Virus record (IMG/VR): IMGVR_UViG_3300020172_000158
Span: 1 to 24,472 of that record
Direction: 5' to 3' (one strand)
Length of the DNA stretch: 24,472 nucleotides
From: a virus
Shown here: positions 9,984-24,472 of the stretch, in pieces
Position numbering within the stretch: position 1 is the stretch's first letter
Layout: every line of letters starts with the position of its first letter
Program-made: the position numbers and the translations under genes
The notes under the pieces: generated by a model
The model's database searches: none
The model's input: the letters and a program-made list of their open reading frames with translations, nothing else
What the model was told of the DNA's origin: nothing

Positions 9984-10409
9984 TTACTTTATCCCCATTG
10001 AGTTGCGGCGGCGAATTGATTGCGATCTTTTCATCAATACTCTTTTAAGTTTCGCACGACCTTTTGTTTTCCAATATCTTTTTAACATTCTTGCTTTATG
10101 AATTCTTGCCGTAGCAGGAATTCGTTTAAGTGTATTACCTGAAATTCTATAACCTTTAACACCAGATTTTCGAATATTTCGTTGAACAATTATTCTATTC
10201 TTTTTGTTTCTACGAATCCTTCGTCTAATCTTTGTAATTCTTCCTAACTTAATGACATTTGCTTCATCCAATTCTACTTCTTCAAATGAACCTTCAGCAA
10301 CATATCTCTTTGCTTCTTCTAATCTCTTTTCAGTAATTTCATTTAGTTTTGCAAATATTAATTCTTTTGCTTCACTAAGTCTATTACTTAAAATTAAATC
10401 TATAATCAT
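9984..10409 (-). CDS. Highly basic core protein, gp68-like candidate
   Basis: 141 residues, the length of T4 gp68. Residues 1-50 are an amphipathic, acidic helix region (LSEAKELIFAKLNEITEKRLEEAK, then FEEVELDEAN). Residues about 55-141 are extremely rich in Arg and Lys (RRRIRRNKKNR, KRYWKTKGRAKLKR, RRRNSMGIK). A basic protein beside the acidic scaffold gp22 and the protease fits a prohead core component that packs with gp22, possibly also contacting DNA. It overlaps the stop of the preceding 274-residue gene by four bases (ATGA). Position and composition support the gp68 assignment, but I cannot align it residue by residue with T4 gp68, so the symbol is left open. Confidence 0.8.
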   Translation of the reverse strand: MIIDLILSNRLSEAKELIFAKLNEITEKRLEEAKRYVAEGSFEEVELDEANVIKLGRITKIRRRIRRNKKNRIIVQRNIRKSGVKGYRISGNTLKRIPATARIHKARMLKRYWKTKGRAKLKRVLMKRSQSIRRRNSMGIK

Positions 10410-11230
10410 TTGGCACGTTTAAAAGCAAAGTCTGCTGCTTTTTGAAAATGACCAGGACTCTTATGTACCATATCTGCAAACTTCTTTTTATTCTGGTCAT
10501 TCAATGCATTATGCACTTGTGTTAATGCCGATGCAGTAAAATGATCTACCTTACGTGTTTGACCTGAAGCAAACTTTACAGAACTTGCAGATTTATTAGA
10601 TACAATCTTATGTAGTGTATCCATAACTGCCTCTTCTAATTCTACTTCTTCAGATTGTGTAACTGCATCAACTGATTTATCATTTGAATATGGTATACTA
10701 AAATACTTTTTAAGTTTATCATTATAGTATAAAGCAATCTTAGTATCATCTGGATACAAACGAATTGCTTTTCTTTTCAATACCAATACATTAGGAGGAT
10801 CACCTTTAAGGTTATCTTCTTCTATAATTTCAAATTCTTCTTTAATCTTATCTTCATCATCACCAATATCTGGTGCATCTTGTCCAACTTTAATACGATG
10901 CGACCTTACTTTTTGTCCATTTGCACCAATTTTAAAATCTGATGTAGCAATAACACCTTCATCTAAATCTTCTCTTACTGCTCTACGTGCCTGTGAGAAG
11001 ATTTGTTTATTATTGGTAATAACATCTACCATTTTATTGAAGATGTTTTGAATGATTGCTCTATCAGCAGGAGAGAAATTTGGTTTATCTTCTTCCATTT
11101 TACCAAGAATTTTATGTAATCTTTGTATCTGTGCTTTGTTACCTAAACCAGCACGTACCAAAATATCAAACTTTGAATAGTCTGATTTTTCTTCTTCTAC
11201 GATTGATTTAAATTCTTGTAATGATTTCAT
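10406..11230 (-). CDS. Prohead-core region protein of unknown function, 274 residues
   Basis: Not confidently recognised. Residues 1-90 are helical (EEEKSDYSKFDILVRAG, KILGKMEEDKPNFSPADRAI). A mixed middle follows (residues 95-200), including an acidic patch and a beta-like VLVLKRKAIRLYPDDTKIALYYN stretch. A separate C-terminal helical segment (residues about 203-274) carries SSVKFASGQTRKVDHFTASAL and KKKFADMVHKSPGHFQKAADFA and ends basic. The C-terminal part looks like a small module that may recur in head genes of related phages. It lies between the 59-residue gp67-like gene and the basic core gene, so a scaffold or internal-head role is likely. The start at 11230 is two bases past the stop of the upstream gene. 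In T4 nothing of this size sits here. Confidence 0.8.
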   Translation of the reverse strand: MKSLQEFKSIVEEEKSDYSKFDILVRAGLGNKAQIQRLHKILGKMEEDKPNFSPADRAIIQNIFNKMVDVITNNKQIFSQARRAVREDLDEGVIATSDFKIGANGQKVRSHRIKVGQDAPDIGDDEDKIKEEFEIIEEDNLKGDPPNVLVLKRKAIRLYPDDTKIALYYNDKLKKYFSIPYSNDKSVDAVTQSEEVELEEAVMDTLHKIVSNKSASSVKFASGQTRKVDHFTASALTQVHNALNDQNKKKFADMVHKSPGHFQKAADFAFKRAK

Positions 11231-15420: not shown

Positions 15421-15466
15421 TTTTTATATTCATGGAATTTATAACTCAATTTATAGTATATTTATA
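15421..15466 (-). promoter_or_regulatory. Late promoter cluster for gp18-gp19: one exact box plus three near copies
   Basis: Minus strand TATAAATA at 15466-15459 (exact), TATAAATT at 15455-15448, TATAAATT at 15443-15436 and TATAAAAA at 15428-15421. The first three are 11 and 12 bases apart, close to one helical turn. The first three predicted starts (about 15453, 15442 and 15430) all leave the AAAGGAG site of gp18 intact. The fourth would start inside it and is probably not used. Confidence 0.7.
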
Positions 15467-15469
15467 ATT

Positions 15470-17098
15470 TTAGAATGTTGACGGCATATAACCACGATTC
15501 TTCGCTACAGTCCATATGTCCTCCCCATCAAATATCTTTTCGTCCTCTTTTCCATCATCAAAAATACCTATTGGCATATATTCATCTTCTAAATGCATCT
15601 TACTTTCTTCCATTAATCTACGTCTGATATCAGAATTTGTAGTCTCTCTAAAGAAAGTTTGTGATGTTAACCAAGAAAATAGAACTAATGCCATCACCAA
15701 ATCGTCATGATTACCTTCTTCTGCCTCATATGAATCTCTTACCTTGACAAATGTGTTTAACTCAGATATAATATCAAAATCTTCAATAATTAGTTTCTTT
15801 GTTTCTACCAAAGTCTTTAAGTTTGCACACCCAATCTTCTTAACAGGTGTTGTGGTCTTTATACCAAATGATACCGCTTTCTTGTATCCAGCAGATAAAT
15901 GCTGACCTTTTGTTACATGTTTCTGTATTTTGAATATATTCTCGTATTCTAATTCATAATGTAAAATGTCAACAACTTGTTGACCTACATTATTAGTCTC
16001 TGCCAACAGAAATGCACCATTATATCTTTGTCCTATATTATATATGATAGTAGGAAAGAGTAAAGGTGCAATGTTATTATCTCTATATTTTGCCACTAGT
16101 TTATATGGTATATCTGTTACATCAACAACTGCAACTGTAGAATAGTCTTGACCTACACCCTCTGCACAGTCTACAGTCATCACATAGGTTCTATCTGGTC
16201 TTGGCATTTCATGTATATCTAATCCCTCAATAGAACTTAATGGATCTCTAAATGCTAATTGTCTTAATATAATACCAGGTATTAATGTTGCAGAAGAACC
16301 AATGAATTCAGTTTCAAACTCTTGTTGAAATTGTTCTTCACTAGTATTTCTAATTGTTTCTTCTTTCCACTTTTGATCCCTGCCTGGTACCATTGACCAG
16401 TGAACTTCAAGTGGTATATACGTTGATCGTTTCTCTGTAGAATCTACCCACATCTTATAGAAATGATTTAGACCATAAGGTGTAGATACAATAATTACTT
16501 TTGTTGTTTTACCTGAAGAGATAACGGGATATGTAGATGTAAAGAAATCATTTGCCATATTCTGTGGAACGAAAGCAAACTCATCAAGAAAGATTAAGTT
16601 GTATGTTCCTCCACGAACACCAGAATTTGATGTTGCAAATGCGGCAATCTTAGAACCGTTCTCTAATTCTAAACTTCTTTTATTCCAAACTACAATACCT
16701 TGTTGTAACCAAATAGGTAAATATTCGTATGCATATTGTATCCTACTTAAAATATCTTGTGCAAGATTACCTTTATTGGCGAGAATTGCAACTGAAAAGT
16801 TTTCTTTGAACAATACACACCATAACATATAACCTGCAGATGTTGTAGTTTTACCTACTTGCCGTGGCATCTTACAAATACTAAAACGATTCTTATGAAA
16901 ATTTCTAACCATATCTTCTTGAAATGGCCACATCTCAAAAGGAATAAGACCACGATCCACGTTGACGATTTTTACATACGTCTTAATGAAGTAAACAGGA
17001 TCCTCTATACACTTTGCAATTTCTATTGCTTGTTCTTCAGTGTATGATAACTCAACCCCTGTTGGTTTTAGTTTTGGATTACCTAGATAACCTTGCAT
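15470..17098 (-). CDS. 17: gp17-like terminase large subunit (packaging ATPase and nuclease)
   Basis: Motor that cuts concatemeric DNA and pumps it through the portal. Length 542 (T4 610). ATPase: Walker A PRQVGKT at 78-84 and Walker B LIFLDE at 168-173, followed by the STPYG coupling motif near 205-209. RNase H-like nuclease: Asp310 (MTVDCAEG), Glu367 (LLAETNN) and Asp465 or Asp466 (GNHDDLVMA), the expected acidic triad. The ATG shares one base with the dps stop (TAATG), so translation is probably coupled. Transcribed with gp13-dps from the late promoter at 20834. A consensus sigma-70 promoter on the opposite strand lies inside it at 15744-15772. Confidence 0.97.
   Translation of the reverse strand: MQGYLGNPKLKPTGVELSYTEEQAIEIAKCIEDPVYFIKTYVKIVNVDRGLIPFEMWPFQEDMVRNFHKNRFSICKMPRQVGKTTTSAGYMLWCVLFKENFSVAILANKGNLAQDILSRIQYAYEYLPIWLQQGIVVWNKRSLELENGSKIAAFATSNSGVRGGTYNLIFLDEFAFVPQNMANDFFTSTYPVISSGKTTKVIIVSTPYGLNHFYKMWVDSTEKRSTYIPLEVHWSMVPGRDQKWKEETIRNTSEEQFQQEFETEFIGSSATLIPGIILRQLAFRDPLSSIEGLDIHEMPRPDRTYVMTVDCAEGVGQDYSTVAVVDVTDIPYKLVAKYRDNNIAPLLFPTIIYNIGQRYNGAFLLAETNNVGQQVVDILHYELEYENIFKIQKHVTKGQHLSAGYKKAVSFGIKTTTPVKKIGCANLKTLVETKKLIIEDFDIISELNTFVKVRDSYEAEEGNHDDLVMALVLFSWLTSQTFFRETTNSDIRRRLMEESKMHLEDEYMPIGIFDDGKEDEKIFDGEDIWTVAKNRGYMPSTF
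15744..15772 (+). promoter_or_regulatory. Perfect consensus sigma-70 promoter antisense within gp17
   Basis: Plus strand TTGACA at 15744-15749, 17 bases, TATAAT at 15767-15772, 12 of 12 consensus positions. The predicted start is near 15779, running rightward antisense to the rest of gp17. No plus-strand gene follows. It lies over codons for the stretch DIISELNTFVK of the nuclease domain, so protein constraint and chance must be weighed. A second identical signal at 3555 makes chance less likely. Confidence 0.55.
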
Positions 17099-17532
17099 TA
17101 CTTAATAATACTTCTCAACATCCATGCATGTTTTTGATGTTTACCTAATAAGTCTTGTAAGAAATTAGACACTGCTGGTTCATTTGCTTGATCGGCTGCA
17201 ACAATACCTGCACGAAGATGATAAATGTATCTATCATTATCATTTTTTATTTCTGCCATCATTAATAAAGGCATTGGTATTGTTGTTGCATCTTGTATAT
17301 CTGATAACTCTTGAAATCTTGATAATGAACCTGGTGCATATGAATCTAATCTTCTTAGATGTTCTGCAATATCGTCTGTCTGTATCCAAATAGCATTATA
17401 GAGTTCATCAAGAAAAGAATGATATTGAGGAAAATCTTTACCTTCAATGTTCCAATGATAGTTGTGTGTCTTTAAGTAAAGGCAAAAGTTAGTTGCTAAG
17501 ATTACTTTTAGTTGTTCAATTAGTTGATCCAT
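17098..17532 (-). CDS. dps: Dps-like ferritin (DNA protection during starvation family)
   Basis: A 144-residue four-helix ferritin-like protein. Dps proteins form 12-subunit shells that oxidise Fe(II) with hydrogen peroxide and protect DNA. The five ferroxidase ligands of E. coli Dps (H51, H63, D67, D78, E82) all have counterparts with identical spacing: His26, His38, Asp42, Asp53 and Glu57, within THNYHWNIEGKDF and DDIAEHLRRLD. The enzyme centre therefore looks intact. It lacks the lysine-rich N-terminal DNA-binding tail of E. coli Dps, so any DNA contact would be indirect. It is inserted exactly between the terminase subunits, with TAATG overlaps on both sides. Its ribosome-binding site AGGAG lies within the last codons of gp16. 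A late gene by context; not part of the T4 core. Confidence 0.92.
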   Translation of the reverse strand: MDQLIEQLKVILATNFCLYLKTHNYHWNIEGKDFPQYHSFLDELYNAIWIQTDDIAEHLRRLDSYAPGSLSRFQELSDIQDATTIPMPLLMMAEIKNDNDRYIYHLRAGIVAADQANEPAVSNFLQDLLGKHQKHAWMLRSIIK

Positions 17533-17927
17533 TACTTACTACTCCTAATTAATTTTACCATCTCTGTAGTTGAACCGATGAATACTGCTTTATCTATAAC
17601 GGTTTTTTCTGATGTTGGTTGATTGTTGTTTAATTCTTTTCTTTTCTTTTGTATATCTAATAAATCTTTATTCAAGTCTGCCAATGTTTTAATTAAGTTA
17701 GCAGCAACTTCATATGCTCTTGGATGTTCAGTTTCTTTTGCCACATTTAATAAATTATCAACAGCAACATTACCTTTTTGTAATAGTGAATTGATGTTTG
17801 TTCTGGCAATATTAAAGTCTGTTTCAACATCATTATTGATAGATATAACTACAGGTACTTCTTCTACTATTTTTTCTGTAGGTTCAATTTCAAATATTTC
17901 TGATAAGTTTTTTTCTAAAGTTTTCAT
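17532..17927 (-). CDS. 16: gp16-like terminase small subunit
   Basis: Regulator of packaging that recognises or positions DNA and stimulates the gp17 ATPase. Length 131 (T4 164). Mostly helical: a variable acidic N terminus (about 1-35), then the pattern FNIARTNINSLLQKGNVAVDNLL, VAKETEHPRAYEVAANLIK, and TLADLNKDLLDIQKKRKELN, the central helical hairpin typical of T4-type small terminases. The ATG shares one base with the gp15 stop and the stop shares one with the dps start. In T4 gene 17 follows directly; here dps intervenes. Confidence 0.9.
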   Translation of the reverse strand: MKTLEKNLSEIFEIEPTEKIVEEVPVVISINNDVETDFNIARTNINSLLQKGNVAVDNLLNVAKETEHPRAYEVAANLIKTLADLNKDLLDIQKKRKELNNNQPTSEKTVIDKAVFIGSTTEMVKLIRSSK

Positions 17928-18928
17928 TATAAAGTTTCAGGCCATTCTGTAAAGGTTTCAGTAAACCCATAAAAATCTGTAGCATTTGCTGAAGAAGGAT
18001 CTGGTCGTGTAAGTATTGTAGTCATAAGTTGTGGTTGTAATACAACACTAGAAACGGTATATAATGCACCAGAATCATCACCTTGTATTCTATCATTTGC
18101 TTTTAGCACACCTGATGCATGAGTTACTTGTATTTGACCTGTGCTATTATTACTAAAATACTCTAAATATCCACTCCAATCTCTATTTAATAAACGAATA
18201 ACTTCACCTTGAATAAATTGGTTATGACCATTAGCGTAATCCACATAATAAGTTCCATTTGTTTTAGAATCACTATCAATATAAATATTTGTATTTGCAG
18301 ATTTAATTAACTTAGTATTAGTAACAACTGCAGGAAATATATATGCTTTTGCGGTAAATTGCAATGTCCAAATTACCATACGGGTAGATGAAAAATCTCC
18401 TTCATAATCTATGCTATGATTTACACTATTCAATATAACTGGCATATCATATTTTTTACCCATAGTAGGAATAAAATTTAAAGTAACAGTAAAATCTGGT
18501 GTAAAATATGGTAATATTTGTTCAATAATTTGTGTACCATCTTCTATATTTCTAACATAGATTGAAAGTGAAAAATCAAAATTGTATGGAACTGGAGCAT
18601 ATTGACTATTGAAACTCTTAGTTGTTGTGTTTGTATAGAAACTTTGTTGTAGAGTTGCTTTTTTACGGGTAGAATCATAAGTCATACCTTCCATATCAAA
18701 ACTCATTCTTGGTAAAGAAGTAGAAATGGATTTAGTAAGTGTTGAATCACTTGTTAATCTTGTAATAAATTTTTCTTTTGGACCATATGATAATGGCACT
18801 TTAATTGTTTCATATTCATCTAATTGATCATTACTATATCGTATCAATTTGATATCATTAAATAATGTACCAAAGGCAACAACAATTTTTCTTATTGTTC
18901 TATTATAGAAATGTTGATTGCCTAACAT
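17927..18928 (-). CDS. 15: gp15-like tail completion / sheath terminator protein
   Basis: Hexameric protein that caps the sheath and tube at the head-proximal end and joins the neck. Length 333 (T4 272). The N terminus with HFYNRTIRKIVVAFGTLFNDIKLIRY is typical of T4-type gp15, as are VPLSYGPKEKFITRL and the PRMSFDMEGMTYDSTRK segment. An extra beta-rich stretch near residues 236-295 (QGEVIRLLN to IQGDDSGALYTVSS) accounts for much of the added length and resembles a module in gp14. Start and stop overlap the neighbours by one base (TAATG). Confidence 0.93.
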   Translation of the reverse strand: MLGNQHFYNRTIRKIVVAFGTLFNDIKLIRYSNDQLDEYETIKVPLSYGPKEKFITRLTSDSTLTKSISTSLPRMSFDMEGMTYDSTRKKATLQQSFYTNTTTKSFNSQYAPVPYNFDFSLSIYVRNIEDGTQIIEQILPYFTPDFTVTLNFIPTMGKKYDMPVILNSVNHSIDYEGDFSSTRMVIWTLQFTAKAYIFPAVVTNTKLIKSANTNIYIDSDSKTNGTYYVDYANGHNQFIQGEVIRLLNRDWSGYLEYFSNNSTGQIQVTHASGVLKANDRIQGDDSGALYTVSSVVLQPQLMTTILTRPDPSSANATDFYGFTETFTEWPETL

Positions 18929-19842
18929 TATGCTTCTCCAAATGGATTATGTTCAGTGAAATCAATAATATCATCTGATTCATTTTGTATTAAAGTATTA
19001 TCAGCATTATCTTCAAAGATAGTATTATTAACTTGTGTTGAATCATCTTCATATGATAAGTTGAAACGAGCATTACTTGAAACGCCAATAACATTAGCAG
19101 AATTAGCAAACGTACCTTTTGTCTGTATAACTGTTAATATTATATTTGAAGTGTTTGCACTGCCATTATATGAATATACAACTGCTTGTGCTGTTGCAGT
19201 ATTTAATGTGGCGCCTTGATATACATACTCACCTGAGATATATCCACCTGAACTATTTGCAGAGGTAAGTTTAAGTTGTGTTCTCTTGTATGAATCAAAT
19301 ATTTGTGCATCAACTTCTGGCACACCAGTAGCAATAACTTCTTCTGAAAATACAAATTGTTTCATTTTTAATGCATAAACATAAACATTACCACCACGAC
19401 CACGGCCCAATGTATAAAACATTGCTTGATTATTTTCATGTTCTACAAATGTTATTTCAAAAAAGTTTTGAACTAAAGGTACATAAACTAAATCACCTTC
19501 TCTTGGATGTATTAAACCTTTTACTGTTTTTAAAAATCTTCTACGTGCTACTAATAAAGTAACTTCATCACGTATCTCTAATCCAAATTTAGAAATAAAA
19601 TCACCTTCTCCATCCATACCAGTAACATTTTCAAGATACATTTCTATTGAATATGCAGAAGTATATGTTTTTAATGTATCTTCACCATATAGATGATCAA
19701 TTTCATCTCTAGATGTTCTTGGTAAATACCAAACATCCATACCATTAATTTTCATGGCTTCAATGACTAAATCTTCAACAAGCAATTGCTCACTTGTTAC
19801 TTGACTTACTGGAAAATTATTGAAATAGAAGTTAGTTGCCAT
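18928..19842 (-). CDS. 14: gp14-like neck protein
   Basis: Neck component that connects the portal-gp13 assembly to the tail. Length 304 (T4 256). The N terminus (NFYFNNFPVSQVTSEQLLVEDL, then GMDVWYLPRTSRDEIDHLYGED) and the GDFISKFGLEIRDEVTLLVARRRF segment are characteristic. Residues about 195-265 form a beta-rich insertion (GGYISGEYVYQG to VIGVSSNARFNLSYEDD) similar in pattern to one in gp15. The C terminus is acidic and ends FTEHNPFGEA. Overlaps gp13 and gp15 by one base each; no separate promoter. Confidence 0.93.
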   Translation of the reverse strand: MATNFYFNNFPVSQVTSEQLLVEDLVIEAMKINGMDVWYLPRTSRDEIDHLYGEDTLKTYTSAYSIEMYLENVTGMDGEGDFISKFGLEIRDEVTLLVARRRFLKTVKGLIHPREGDLVYVPLVQNFFEITFVEHENNQAMFYTLGRGRGGNVYVYALKMKQFVFSEEVIATGVPEVDAQIFDSYKRTQLKLTSANSSGGYISGEYVYQGATLNTATAQAVVYSYNGSANTSNIILTVIQTKGTFANSANVIGVSSNARFNLSYEDDSTQVNNTIFEDNADNTLIQNESDDIIDFTEHNPFGEA

Positions 19843-20807
19843 TATCCAATAAACATATCATTTGGTAATACATTGTAAGATTGCATTTCTTCTTCTATTT
19901 TATCAATTTCTACTTGTGCTTCTTGCATAATTCTTGGTCCATCTAATGTAACTCCACCAGGTAATTGTATACCTGCAAATTTACTTAAATTAGAACCCCA
20001 TTGGTATTTAATTTTTGCAGTAGCATATTGTTTTAAAAATCTATCATCGTAAGCTTGTCCAATACCATCTTTAGTAATTGTTGATGCAGTATTGGTAGCA
20101 GTAAATGCTGTTGCAACATTTAAAGAAGTTTCAGAATCAATTGCTACAACTCTTCTTACTTGTCTAGAATTAGTTCCAACAATAAAATTAATTTCATCAC
20201 CAATTATAATATCTCTTAAAAATGTTGTATTTGTTCCTGTAACTGTAGTATTACCATACTCAAAACTTGCAGTACCGTCCATATATTGAGTAGCAGGAAT
20301 TATTTTTCTATAACATTCCATTACCAGATATTCTCCCTCCATCACATCTCTAGACCAATCAATATCTAAAAATAACTTGTTTATATTTCGATTAAATCTA
20401 TATTGAGGCATACCAGAAAACAACATATTTAATGTAGTAATATGTTGCATTGTAATTTCATATGACACATAAGATACTGATGTAAAATCATAAAGGTCAT
20501 GCAATCTTAATTGATAACGCATATCAAACATATTTACGGATGATGTTGAATTATCAAATGGTAATACACTAATAACAGAACTAATTTGATCTGGACAATA
20601 AATCCAACCACGAGCTATATCATCAGCTGAAACTTTATGTTTCATATAGATTTTTTCAGTGCCATCAAAATGATAATCTTGCCAAAATTGTAAAGCATCT
20701 TGCACACGATCTTCAAGTTGATCATCATCCACGTTAATTTCAATAACGGGATGACCCAATCTACGGAGACAATATTCTTTAAATTCTGCTTTTGTAGTTA
20801 TAGCCAT
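19842..20807 (-). CDS. 13: gp13-like neck protein (head completion)
   Basis: Head completion protein that binds the portal once DNA is packaged and receives gp14 and the tail. Length 321 (T4 309). The N terminus (EFKEYCLRRLGHPVIEINVDDDQLEDRVQDALQ pattern, helical) and the C-terminal FLKQYATAKIKYQWGSNLSKFAG segment are typical. Residues about 178-248 (FEYGNTTVTGTNTTF to TASTITKDG) look like a separate small beta domain. First gene of the 13-17 operon, with an exact late promoter 27 bases upstream. The leader carries AGG about ten bases before the ATG, a weak ribosome-binding site. Confidence 0.94.
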   Translation of the reverse strand: MAITTKAEFKEYCLRRLGHPVIEINVDDDQLEDRVQDALQFWQDYHFDGTEKIYMKHKVSADDIARGWIYCPDQISSVISVLPFDNSTSSVNMFDMRYQLRLHDLYDFTSVSYVSYEITMQHITTLNMLFSGMPQYRFNRNINKLFLDIDWSRDVMEGEYLVMECYRKIIPATQYMDGTASFEYGNTTVTGTNTTFLRDIIIGDEINFIVGTNSRQVRRVVAIDSETSLNVATAFTATNTASTITKDGIGQAYDDRFLKQYATAKIKYQWGSNLSKFAGIQLPGGVTLDGPRIMQEAQVEIDKIEEEMQSYNVLPNDMFIG

Positions 20808-20833: not shown

Positions 20834-20841
20834 TATTTATA
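20834..20841 (-). promoter_or_regulatory. Late promoter TATAAATA for the gp13-gp17 operon
   Basis: Exact box on the minus strand. The predicted start at 20828 gives a leader of about 20 bases. No further exact late box appears until after gp17, so one transcript of roughly 5.3 kb probably carries gp13, 14, 15, 16, dps and 17. Confidence 0.8.
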
Positions 20842-20876: not shown

Positions 20877-22118
20877 TCAAACATTAATTAGATATTTTTC
20901 ACAATGTTGCGGTTGTCCAGTAACAGATTTCATTCTATCAATTGTTTCTCTGTCAACTAAATCAGGATGTACCCACCAATCTTCAAAACTTGCCCAATCG
21001 TTAGGTGCAATATCTGCGGCAACCAATTCATATCCTTGCGATAACAAATATTTACGTGATTTATCTCTGTATGACCTAGTGATATCTGTATAGTAATCAT
21101 GCTCAAATGTGATAACTGCAAATCTAAATTCATCAAAAGGAATACCTAAAAGTATTTCAAATGTTGTTGAGGGTGGTTCACAATCTAATTGTAGATAATC
21201 AAAATCATTACCCATATTCAGTGAACGTAAAAATGTTCTATAATTAATTTTAGTAGCATCAAGATGATGAACTGGATTACTTCTATGTTCTCTAAATTTA
21301 GCAACTTCATGGTCTAAGATTTCTAATGAATGTCCAGTCCAACCAAATTCTTTTTCTAACAATGCAGTATTACTACCATAATATGGATCAGCAGCACCTA
21401 CTTCAAAATATTTTCCATTTTGTTTTCCATTCAACATTGTAAGAATAAACATATCTTGGTAACATTGTGAATAGTTTTGTTCAATATTTTCACTACCAGT
21501 AAACTTAAATTTTAATGCAGGTTGTTTACTTTTATCATATGGATTAAATGCATCTTCTTTTCTTAATCCAATACGAGTAACACTATATTGAACTGCACGA
21601 CCATGTGCCTCATCTAAATCATTACCGTGATTAATTATAATTTCTTGAAACAAATTTCTACATTCATCTGTTTTGCCACACCACCAAGACGATATTGCTT
21701 TTTGAAATAACAATCCATATGCACCAGGATATTCAACCCATGTTCTTAATGGCGATACTGATTTATCCCATATTGCTATACCAATAGTTGCATAGTTATA
21801 TGATTCAAACCATTGTCTTTGCCACTCCATCAATCTACTTAATAAGAAATATGCTTCTGGTCTTGTAGGTGAATGCCAAATTGCTTGCTGAAGTAAACAC
21901 TTGGTACTAAACTCTCTTCTTCCCTGTTTCATAAAACATAAAGAAACTTTTAACATACATTCATATGCTAAATTTTTATCTTCAGTTTTTTCACAGCATT
22001 TCATATAGAATGAAATGGCAGCTGCATATTGTTCTTTTTTATGATATTCTTGTGCTAATGCAAAACAACTTTCATCGTCACGATATTTAATATAATCTAA
22101 TAATTTTTGCTTATCCAT
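20877..22118 (-). CDS. TPR protein fused to an FkbM-type methyltransferase
   Basis: 413 residues from the chosen start. Residues about 1-190 are helical tandem repeats of tetratricopeptide type (for example CFALAQEYHKKEQYAAAISF, then AYFLLSRLMEWQRQWFESYNYA). Residues about 215-370 are a class I SAM-dependent methyltransferase of the FkbM group: SQCYQD at 217-222, motif I YFEVGAADP at 237-245 with GSNTALLEKEFGWTG after it, FDYLQLDCEPP at 306-316 and FEHD at 338-341. FkbM enzymes usually O-methylate sugars or secondary metabolites. I chose the ATG at 22118, which overlaps the upstream stop by eight bases and has GGAAG nine bases before it. A start ten codons earlier would lie deeper in the upstream gene. 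It follows the beta-propeller gene in one late operon. The substrate is unknown; phage or host surface glycan is an inference. Confidence 0.88.
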   Translation of the reverse strand: MDKQKLLDYIKYRDDESCFALAQEYHKKEQYAAAISFYMKCCEKTEDKNLAYECMLKVSLCFMKQGRREFSTKCLLQQAIWHSPTRPEAYFLLSRLMEWQRQWFESYNYATIGIAIWDKSVSPLRTWVEYPGAYGLLFQKAISSWWCGKTDECRNLFQEIIINHGNDLDEAHGRAVQYSVTRIGLRKEDAFNPYDKSKQPALKFKFTGSENIEQNYSQCYQDMFILTMLNGKQNGKYFEVGAADPYYGSNTALLEKEFGWTGHSLEILDHEVAKFREHRSNPVHHLDATKINYRTFLRSLNMGNDFDYLQLDCEPPSTTFEILLGIPFDEFRFAVITFEHDYYTDITRSYRDKSRKYLLSQGYELVAADIAPNDWASFEDWWVHPDLVDRETIDRMKSVTGQPQHCEKYLINV

Positions 22119-23082
22119 TGATGTAATCTTCCATGTCATTTTCATCAAATGCTACAATATACGAAGCATTATCTTGAAACCCAAATGTTAATATAAACTT
22201 ACCGTTATGCACTGCACCACCACAACAAAATTCAATTTTACCACCCATAAACGAAAATGGTTTAGATGTCTTAATACGATTCCAATCTTTATCCCAAACT
22301 ATAATTCTATGTCTATAGATTGCATCTTTATTACCAATTTCTGTTTTAAGTAAATCTACTTCGTGAACTACTGCACAATAGTTATCTTTCCATGTAAACA
22401 CTTGTGAACCACCACGCCAATCTTTGAACCCTGGAGTAAATTCTCCATGATGAATTTGTTCGCATGTTTTTGTTATTGGATCAACTTTAACAACTTCAAT
22501 AGGATTACACCACTTAACAAAATGATATGGTAAATCTAAAATTGGCATCCAATTCTTTTCACAGTAACTATCATCTTTTAATGGTGCAGGAATTCTAAAT
22601 CTTGAAATCTCTTCTGCTTTATCACCAGAGATTGTAATTTCTGATAATTCCATTCTACCTTGTCCATTTGGTGTTGTATCTCGTCTAACACCACATAGAT
22701 ACATTTTATCATCCCAATTAAACAATCTACAATCTTCAAGACCAATAAATTCCCAAAGTGGTCTTACATCTAATTTAGATGTTTCAACATATTTACAACT
22801 AACTGTTTTGTAATTTTCATCTAACTCTAACAAGAAATTCTTTGTAGTTAAAGTTATATCATCTTCTGGATGAAGATAATTTAATGGACCATAAAAGAGA
22901 GATACCTTTTCGTTCTCTGAATGGTATAAGTTATAATTAACATGCCTAATATTTACCATCAATTTACCATTAGAGAAAAATAACGAGGGGTTTAATAATC
23001 CAGTACCCCCTGTTAATTTTGAATCTACTAGTAACGGTTCAATCTCAAACTTTAATTTCTCTAAAATAATATCATCTTGCAT
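22111..23082 (-). CDS. Five-bladed beta-propeller glycosidase-like protein (GH130/GH43-clan resemblance)
   Basis: 323 residues with repeated blade-type motifs: NPSLFF at 31-36, GLEDCRLF at 114-121, EKNWMP at 175-180, RGGSQVF at 223-229 and FCCGGA at 285-290. GLEDxR and KNWxP resemble the GxEDPR and KNW signatures of GH130-like phosphorylases and related five-bladed propellers. In those enzymes a conserved Asp or Glu attacks the sugar bond. Whether this protein is an active enzyme or only binds sugar cannot be told. No signal peptide. It lies after an exact late promoter, between the collagen-like fibre gene and the TPR-FkbM gene, which suggests joint action on glycans. The ATG at 23082 has AAAGGTG nine bases upstream. 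Confidence 0.75.
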   Translation of the reverse strand: MQDDIILEKLKFEIEPLLVDSKLTGGTGLLNPSLFFSNGKLMVNIRHVNYNLYHSENEKVSLFYGPLNYLHPEDDITLTTKNFLLELDENYKTVSCKYVETSKLDVRPLWEFIGLEDCRLFNWDDKMYLCGVRRDTTPNGQGRMELSEITISGDKAEEISRFRIPAPLKDDSYCEKNWMPILDLPYHFVKWCNPIEVVKVDPITKTCEQIHHGEFTPGFKDWRGGSQVFTWKDNYCAVVHEVDLLKTEIGNKDAIYRHRIIVWDKDWNRIKTSKPFSFMGGKIEFCCGGAVHNGKFILTFGFQDNASYIVAFDENDMEDYING

Positions 23083-23128: not shown

Positions 23129-24472
23129 TTATACTTGTATAAATGATTGAGAAATGTACCACACTGTATCTGAATTAAATTTAGTGCAAACATATATTGT
23201 TACTTTACTTGCTGCGGTAGCAACAGCTGGTAATGTAGCACTGTTATTGTAAGCAAGAGTTTCACCACTGGGTGCAGCAAATGCTACTGTTCTTCCACCT
23301 GTTCCATCTTGCTTACATACAACAACAAATGTTCTTACTGCAGTACCACCAGGTTGACTTGATGGTAATGTAATAGTTACATTTCCAGTTAATGTAATTC
23401 TTTGAACATTATCTGTTGATGTTAATGTAAATGTAGTACCAGAGTTTGTATATGCTGCAGCACCTTCTCTAAAGTATGATATTGTATTACCACCAAAAGA
23501 AACATCACCAGAGAATGTTCCACCACCAAATGGTGTTCCAGTTAAACCTTGTGTACCTTGTGTACCAGTAGTACCTTGACTACCCGTAGTACCTTGAGTG
23601 CCTTGTGGTCCTTGAATACCTTGTATACCTTGAGCACCAGTAGTACCTTGACTACCTGTGGCGCCTTGACTACCAGTAGCACCTTGAGCACCAGTAGCAC
23701 CTTGACTACCTGTGGCGCCTTGAGAACCGGTAGCACCTTGTGATCCAGTAGCACCTTGAGAACCTGTTGTTCCTTGAACACCTTGCGTACCTTGTGTACC
23801 AGTAGTACCTTGTGATCCAGTAGCACCTTGAGCACCAGTAGCACCTTGACTACCTGTAGTTCCTTGAACACCTTGTGTACCTTGAACACCTCTAACACCA
23901 GTAATTGTTATTGTCCAAGATGATGCTAATGTTGTTCCAAGATTATAATCAGCAGCAATAGCAAATGTTGTTCCTGTAGTAATTGTTACAATACCTTCAA
24001 ACAAATTATCGGCTGTATTGATAGCACGAACACGATCACCTGTAGCAAAAGCACCTTGAATATTAGTAGTTAATGTAATTGTTCCAGAACTAGCGGGTGT
24101 TGCAGAAGTTGTTGATGTTACACCAGCATATCCAGTACCTTGCAAACCTTGTATACCTTGTGTACCCTGCACACCTTGTATACCTTGAATACCCTGAGTA
24201 CCTTGAGTACCCTGTGTACCTTGAACACCTTGGATACCTTGTGTACCTTGAGTACCTTGAGAACCAGTAGCACCTTGACTACCAGTTATACCTTGAACAC
24301 CTTGAGTACCTTGACTACCTGTAGTTCCCTGAGAACCTGTGGCACCTTGACTACCTGTAGCACCTTGTGATCCAGTAGTTCCTTGAACACCTTGAGTACC
24401 TTGTGATCCAGTAATTCCTTGAACACCTTGAGTACCAGTAGCACCTTGACTGCCTGTTGTTCCTTGAACACC
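23129..24472 (-). CDS. Collagen-like fibre protein, N terminus outside window
   Basis: 447 residues visible; the reading frame is open to the right edge, so the N terminus is missing. Residues 1-113 and about 195-313 are Gly-X-Y repeats, mostly [12 protein letters not shown] and GTTGSQ, with a single Pro in the repeats, typical of phage collagen-like fibres. Between them lies a small beta domain (about 114-194: [20 protein letters not shown] to [13 protein letters not shown]). The C terminus (314-447) is Ser/Thr/Val-rich beta sequence ending [10 protein letters not shown], a likely trimeric tip. A GTG at 24172 is an internal Val within the repeats, not a start. Role: probably host-recognition or appendage fibre. 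It precedes glycan-type genes, which may act on it or on the host surface. Confidence 0.88.
23534..23890 (-). repeat. Collagen-type coding repeat, second block
   Basis: Degenerate 9-base units coding Gly-X-Y, such as the plus-strand words ACCTTG alternating with ACCAGTAGC or ACCTGTAGT. The same words recur tens of times, with third-base variation. The near-identical units make this block prone to slippage and to expansion or contraction, and give rise to spurious open frames in other registers. Confidence 0.85.
24134..24472 (-). repeat. Collagen-type coding repeat, first block, continuing past the window edge
   Basis: Same Gly-X-Y coding units as the block at 23534-23890, here with more GTQ, GIQ and GVQ triplets near its 3' part (24134-24250). 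The block is cut by the right edge, so its full length is unknown. Confidence 0.85.

Follow-up and report, generated by a model that had tools for sequence, protein, structure and literature searches.

A tail-less Dps-family mini-ferritin encoded between the terminase genes of a T4-like phage, a candidate for late iron and peroxide detoxification

Phage-encoded Dps proteins are already in print. In the portion of the text available to us, Benler et al. 2021 (PMC8008677) describe DPS in gut phages ('Gratiaviridae' and others) and propose tolerance of oxidative damage, which is a precedent for the role considered here, though the hosts in question are strictly anaerobic Bacteroides and that portion names neither a terminase-junction locus nor a T4-like clade. 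Lactobacillus phages, for example Semele, likewise encode a Dps for which part of PMC6669764 proposes an iron and peroxide role. The Dps investigated here is encoded in IMG/VR virus record IMGVR_UViG_3300020172_000158, a stretch of 24,472 bases that was analyzed in full and is referred to as the window. Its minus strand carries a T4-like late module in the order gp13, gp14, gp15, gp16, dps, gp17, gp18, gp19 and gp20, with dps seated between the genes for the small (gp16) and large (gp17) terminase subunits. The Semele protein is only remotely similar to it (Foldseek E-value 1.9e-6, 19% identity), and the Semele gene lies close to replication genes. The T4-like Synechococcus phage S-SRM01 (MW015081, Kyanoviridae) was the best-scoring isolate in a tblastn search and has one match, a Dps that also places 25 residues before H26 but is 34% identical to the window Dps, lies away from the terminase genes and has glycine at position 42. 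Among cellular proteins, PA0962 of Pseudomonas aeruginosa (8ff9), TpF1 (2fjc) and Dlp-1 (1ji5) share the full-length fold, the ligand pattern and a short helix in the BC loop with the window Dps; they differ from it in sequence (28-31% identity), and the phage protein forms part of a separate branch and is encoded in a packaging operon. Agrobacterium tumefaciens Dps (1o9r), also a cellular protein, matches the fold (Z 20.8) and by its title is a family member that protects DNA without binding it. Neither a Dps between terminase genes nor a Dps lineage specific to T4-like phages was found in open-licence PMC titles and abstract openings, among the matches listed, and two myophage papers and a Lake Baikal virus paper (PMC7029224, PMC9004378, PMC7678222) do not mention Dps in their main text.

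Identity, fold and phage ancestry of the encoded Dps

A first-pass annotation, made from the sequence alone, had read the gene as a Dps with all five ferroxidase ligands, inserted between the terminase subunit genes. This open reading frame (ORF) was recovered exactly, on the minus strand, which the annotation had left unsaid, and its neighbors match terminase small and large subunit profiles (Table 1). Membership of the Dps family is supported far beyond chance by the Pfam Ferritin model PF00210 (E-value 2.8e-22, 79.6 bits against a cut-off of 24.5), by a whole-protein match over residues 2-143 to PHROG 3636, a phage 'DNA binding protein' (E-value 8.2e-34), and by a sequence search against solved chains, in which PA0962 Dps ranked best (E-value 8.9e-22). 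Folding from the single sequence was poor (predicted local distance difference test, pLDDT, 51), and a monomeric AlphaFold model built from 71 aligned sequences was used instead (pLDDT 98.1, predicted template modeling score 0.92). The model comprises helices at residues 2-28, 34-61, 70-76, 88-115 and 119-143, of which the short 70-76 helix lies in the BC loop. It superimposes on PA0962 Dps with a TM score of 0.95 and, in VIA-align, on T. elongatus Dps with Z 23.5 and a root-mean-square deviation of 0.9 over 144 residues; the 50 Foldseek PDB matches shown are Dps-type entries, including NAP, MrgA, Dpr and TpF1. From the predicted fold and the family, the subunits should assemble into the usual dodecameric shell.

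The window Dps carries H26, H38, D42, D53 and E57, which we take to be metal ligands. Residue 3 aligns to position 28 of the E. coli-type NCBIfam model, and with this offset of 25 the five residues fall at 51, 63, 67, 78 and 82, presumably the E. coli ligand positions. The N-terminal tail is missing, with only 25 residues before H26, as it is in 157 of 159 junction loci (repeats included), and the protein is acidic (isoelectric point 5.5, net charge -6). The absence of a tail together with this acidity favors iron removal over DNA coating, which is the preference that the first-pass annotation had expressed.

The gene is a regular component of these phages and no oddity. So that the choice of relatives would not depend on dps, they were picked with the window gp17, which matched 417 stretches; from the 415 that held up on confirmation, the top 80 were retained. 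Far from being absent from all close relatives, dps occupies the junction in 69 of these 80 loci, while gp16 runs straight into gp17 in 10 (dps-less junctions L045, L049, L071, L074, L075, L080, L084, L087, L094 and L097) and one, L091, ends before the junction. Of the loci numbered to L184, 171 have a Dps match (some contigs are present twice), and gp16 and gp17 flank the gene in 153; one of the two is present with a contig end near on the other side in 14, and Dps lies elsewhere in four (L003, L031, L033 and L035). Another Dps type, which shares 43-47% identity with the window Dps, is likewise found at the junction, as both neighbors are present in 68 of the 80 loci retrieved with it, one in 7 and none in 5, though the lowest-ranking of these may be other types. 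The gene is under purifying selection, with a median ratio of non-synonymous to synonymous substitution rates (dN/dS) of 0.20 (quartiles 0.16-0.23, maximum 0.40; 1083 type-A pairs with dS of 0.1-1.5).

The window Dps also appears, from its sequence, to be a member of a Dps branch that is mostly specific to phages and stands apart from bacterial Dps. In a tree of 89 rows and 144 columns (IQ-TREE, C20 mixture), with sets drawn from the best matches of several scans, one clade of 63 rows (support 96/93) unites all 23 junction rows with 39 of the 42 other rows from phages and excludes all but one of the 24 bacterial rows. The bacterial exception, L234, comes from a metagenome-assembled genome (MAG) contig, as does L185, which was counted as phage; the phage rows that group with bacteria are L434, L435 and L035. 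The main junction group comprises 17 rows (support 100/100). Two or three junction groups are seen, but separate origins were set aside since a single origin was not rejected (p-AU 0.139), and for this reason only two types, A and B, are claimed. The inner forks are weak because of the few columns, an unsettled bootstrap and the long branches of L003, L033 and L035. Recent acquisition from a host was also considered and is not supported, with no close donor among 79 bacterial-contig Dps (from the best 80 of the scan), which are 32-41% identical to the window Dps; the single 54% match of the bacterial scan, L185, lies on its MAG contig among neighbors that look phage-like by eye. The occupancy of the junction, the purifying selection and the nearly all-phage clade together do not support a recent insertion or a recently host-derived gene, transfer from a host being a possibility that the first-pass annotation had raised.

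Probable late expression, proposed role and alternatives

T4-type late genes lie in runs of virion genes that are read from a TATAAATA-like late promoter. In the window, eight of nine ATAAATA occurrences lie on the coding strand; there, one stands before gp13 (20834), the next before gp18 (15459), and the interval holds no other. The placement recurs among relatives, for which we searched the 70 nucleotides (nt) before each start in distinct sequences and took expectations from first-order Markov resampling. There, NATAAATA precedes gp13 in 30 of 61 sequences (2.7 expected), gp18 in 35 of 84 (8.8 expected) and gp19 in 49 of 59 (0.7 expected); it is at chance before gp15 (2 of 104, 1.6 expected) and was found before none of 85 gp14, 111 gp16, 117 gp17 and 49 gp20 starts. 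Because the motif in the window stands before gp13 and then not until gp18, the simplest reading is that dps is transcribed on a late message shared with the neck and terminase genes. One-base TAATG overlaps, as annotated, tie it to gp16 upstream and, at its own stop codon, to gp17 downstream, and a likely ribosome-binding site was located in the final gp16 codons, where it had been placed. Late expression with the terminase genes, which the first-pass annotation had proposed, is therefore likely in the window phage on the strength of these motifs and overlaps.

We consider it reasonably probable that the window dps encodes a mini-ferritin dedicated to the phage, which detoxifies iron and peroxide late in infection without coating DNA. 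In this proposal, the late message for virion genes would yield Dps alongside both terminase proteins, and the Dps subunits would form the dodecameric shell expected from the fold and family. Sites between subunits, to judge from the ligands, would bind Fe(II) and oxidize it, with either hydrogen peroxide or oxygen as the oxidant, and the iron would be stored in mineral form, so that free iron and peroxide would be lowered in the dying cell and the replicated, still unpackaged phage DNA, along with phage enzymes, would be shielded from Fenton damage. Given the acidity and the lack of a basic tail, such protection would most likely proceed by removal of iron. The chemistry of iron and peroxide seldom figures among the factors considered to restrict lytic phage production. 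A ferritin lineage found mostly in phages, and maintained at the terminase junction in one clade but at other places in others, makes such a restriction testable, with the prediction that yield is limited by DNA damage in late infection.

Several observations weigh against this proposal. The protein scores below the cut-offs of the NCBIfam Dps equivalogs (NF006975, 42.9 against 114 bits; NF041388, 44.8 against 170; NF052461, 38.8 against 300), and we thus place it in the Dps family yet in none of these named equivalogs. The fifth ligand position, residue 42, is acidic in just 29 of 132 distinct junction relatives, which indicates that there is no strict constraint to keep all five ligands of the center; the label 'ferroxidase-competent' given in the first pass accordingly holds by sequence for the window phage and does not extend across the family as a five-ligand centre. 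The 10 of 80 relatives without dps at the junction show that the gene is dispensable there. As to the host, no psbA was found in any of the 14 contigs examined. ATAAATA shows no excess in the window (9 against 17.4 expected), so only its placement is telling. Finally, a single shared message does not explain a AATAAATA-type motif that lies about 16 nt directly before dps in 69 of 120 relatives (4.3 expected) and is absent in the window. This motif overlaps the final gp16 codons, in most cases AAT AAA and then a TAA or TAG stop, and may in part be due to gp16 coding; in L344, however, the motif before dps is kept although the end of gp16 is in a different frame. It was absent at the nine dps-less junctions inspected, and it sits close to the dps start codon for a promoter. 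It may represent a late promoter, a ribosome-binding context or both.

An alternative that we regard as unlikely is that the Dps is associated with the head, acting in or packaged into the prohead and protecting or organizing DNA there. Its position within the packaging operon is compatible with this, and among 18 structure matches at E-values of 0.001 or below, three Dps-fold phage entries (763, 333 and 432 residues) are named 'Prohead protease'. In L374, which comes from a different T4-like phage, the third ORF before dps encodes a virion structural protein (PHROG 1645). A fusion of Dps to a head protein, as suggested by the entry names, was nevertheless rejected, as no fused Dps ORF was present in 163 + 79 = 242 loci (repeats included). 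The Dps has no basic tail, and its N-terminus varies (MDQLIEQ, MEQLIQQ, METLIEM) without what we take to be the conserved motif of a cleavable head-targeting peptide. The three named entries in BFVD are A0A6J7WPK9, A0A6J7XDU5 and A0A6J7WIS1, and they are not among the loci examined. A broader version, to which we give little credence, holds that a long-diverged mini-ferritin of T4-like phages acts inside virion assembly, in some phages fused to prohead proteins, and keeps packaging DNA free of iron-driven breaks, while homing endonucleases move its alleles from phage to phage at the terminase junction. If true, a dedicated Dps of the prohead environment, made with terminase and structural proteins, would enter or line the prohead.

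It is similarly doubtful that the protein serves as an iron store rather than a detoxifier, gathering the iron that is freed when host proteins are degraded, for use in iron enzymes of the phage or as iron carried in progeny tails. The ferroxidase ligands do imply storage of iron as mineral, and a 'Ferrojan horse' idea has reportedly been named in existing papers. Nothing ties dps to tail iron, though no search was aimed at iron-release partners or tail-iron proteins, and rubrerythrin, the sole other such family sought, occurs in 2 of 16 contigs.

Quite unlikely, in our assessment, is that the family is maintained chiefly for metal binding by four ligands or as a structural cage, its ferroxidase activity being weak. 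Across the 132 distinct junction Dps, none of which was dropped, position 42 is aspartate in 28, glutamate in 1, glycine in 64, asparagine in 33 and another residue in 6, which places glycine or asparagine, the residues behind this alternative, in 97. Against it, all 111 distinct junction Dps that could be read have H26, H38, D53 and E57 without exception (one further row has no letters there), an acidic residue is found at 39, 42 or 43 in 111 of 132, 24 of 79 bacterial relatives have methionine at position 42 (53 have glutamate), and the window Dps retains all five ligands. A carboxylate swap between positions 39 and 42, which could reflect a moved metal ligand, was also considered. Position 39 is acidic in 67 of the 132 and both positions are acidic in only one (Fisher p 1e-9), an exclusion that is absent among the 79 bacterial Dps; it is weaker in other phage Dps, of which 12 of 163 are acidic at both, with 6 more distinct sequences outside the search pattern dropped. 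The swap is not significant when relatedness is allowed for, and we retain it only as a lead. The lineage offers many natural variants, with aspartate, asparagine or glycine at a ferroxidase position, for biochemical study; L078 and L064 are examples with asparagine or glycine at position 42.

The terminase junction as a cargo slot

Our findings indicate that dps recurs among T4-like phages, with the terminase junction as one of the places that house it. Among 14 large contigs with a related Dps away from genes 13-20, a T4-type portal was detected in 12, and each contig has one match to the window Dps; at the six off-junction loci that were read, the neighbors are mostly charged, repetitive ORFs. 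The junction itself is a cargo slot. In the nearest isolates, gene 16 is separated from gene 17, contrary to the first-pass statement that the two usually adjoin in T4-like phages, and this corrects the view of a fixed junction. Mosig carries one hypothetical gene there and S-PM2 three, whereas HTVC008M shares the site of insertion with the window but fills it with unrelated enzymes, a tryptophan halogenase and a PhyH-type dioxygenase, and has no dps in the 10 kb read. In P-SSM2, hypothetical genes directly precede gp17, with gp16 outside the stretch read. Because relatives hold their single Dps off genes 13-20 and the slot accommodates unrelated cargo, the terminase neighborhood on its own says little on function.

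Exchange at this site appears to have been repeated. On a gp17 tree from which 13 distant gp17 forms were left out, Dps types A and B require at least four changes and presence or absence of the gene three, which suggests that Dps alleles were exchanged in place. At the 13 loci left out (L112, L111, L115, L116, L125, L129, L141, L143, L157, L163, L165, L175 and L184), gp17 is distant (41-47% identity) while the adjoining Dps remains 60-80% identical and the neighbors are otherwise clade-like, and so a replacement of gp17 alone, with dps left in place, is probable. The window itself is 100% identical to L006 in the DNA of gp16 and dps and 98% in gp17, but 73% in the aligned part of gp15, which argues that the gp16-dps-gp17 block probably recombined. 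The final 230 bases of L030 encode a Dps that resembles that of L038 for about the first 45 residues and then switches to another type at the contig end, and represent either a recombinant or an assembly join.

ORFs of the GIY-YIG type lie between dps and gp17 in seven loci (L054, L056, L057, L099, L176, L538 and L540), and the one tested, from L056, matches the PHROG 314 homing endonuclease; between gp16 and dps, an ORF that appears HNH-like by eye occurs in L551 and L556, and other ORFs occur in L545 and L546. These homing-endonuclease-like ORFs are plausible agents of allele exchange. That dps is mere mobility cargo of little benefit, spread by endonucleases in the slot, is suggested by these inserts and by the unrelated cargo of other phages but is highly unlikely given the dN/dS of 0.20, the four invariant ligands and the lack of such an insert in most loci (wide gaps in 5 of 153, and in 10 of 80, some with other cargo).

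Gene neighborhood and additional observations

The features of the dps gene run are collected in Table 1.

Table 1. Genes and candidate signals around dps in the window
Feature	Position	Strand	Description
dps	17098..17532	minus	144-residue tail-less Dps-type mini-ferritin; ligands H26, H38, D42, D53, E57
Gene 16, terminase small subunit	17532..17927	minus	PF11053, E-value 2.8e-10; PHROG 445, E-value 4.7e-36
Gene 17, terminase large subunit	15470..17098	minus	PF03237, E-value 8.4e-25
Gene 15-like tail sheath stabilizer	17927..18928	minus	Within the dps gene run; Pfam/PHROG profiles
Gene 14-like neck protein (head closure)	18928..19842	minus	Within the dps gene run; Pfam/PHROG profiles
Gene 13-like head-tail adaptor	19842..20807	minus	PHROG 211; first gene of the run
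ATAAATA, T4-late-promoter-like	20834..20840	minus	26 nt 5' of the gene 13 start codon; candidate promoter for the run including dps
ATAAATA, next on the minus strand	15459..15465	minus	Precedes gene 18
AGGAG, likely dps ribosome-binding site	17542..17546	minus	Read from the sequence; 9 nt before the dps ATG, in the final gp16 codons

Among the wider contents of dps-bearing phages, a rubrerythrin-family match is present in two of 16 records, at 4968-5408 of L273 (record G005) and in record G008. The S-adenosylmethionine (AdoMet) decarboxylase family had no match in the 14 contigs examined; its gene speH is given as a trait of freshwater SAR11 myophages in PMC7029224. A PADLOC defense scan returned only a weak GajA match (E-value 0.0025), which we judged to be chance.

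Elsewhere in the window, gp13 and the gene for a Gly-rich repeat protein (23129-24172) enclose ORFs for a protein with TPR matches (20877-22148) and a 323-residue protein without an NCBIfam match (22111-23082). A nucleotidyltransferase of the cytidylyl/adenylyltransferase type (TIGR00125, above cut-off) is encoded at 2513-2965. Two proteins without clear families adjoin the portal gene (10406-11230 and 9984-10409), and the former begins with MKSLQEFKSIVEEE, a start that we take to be reminiscent of T4 head-targeting peptides.

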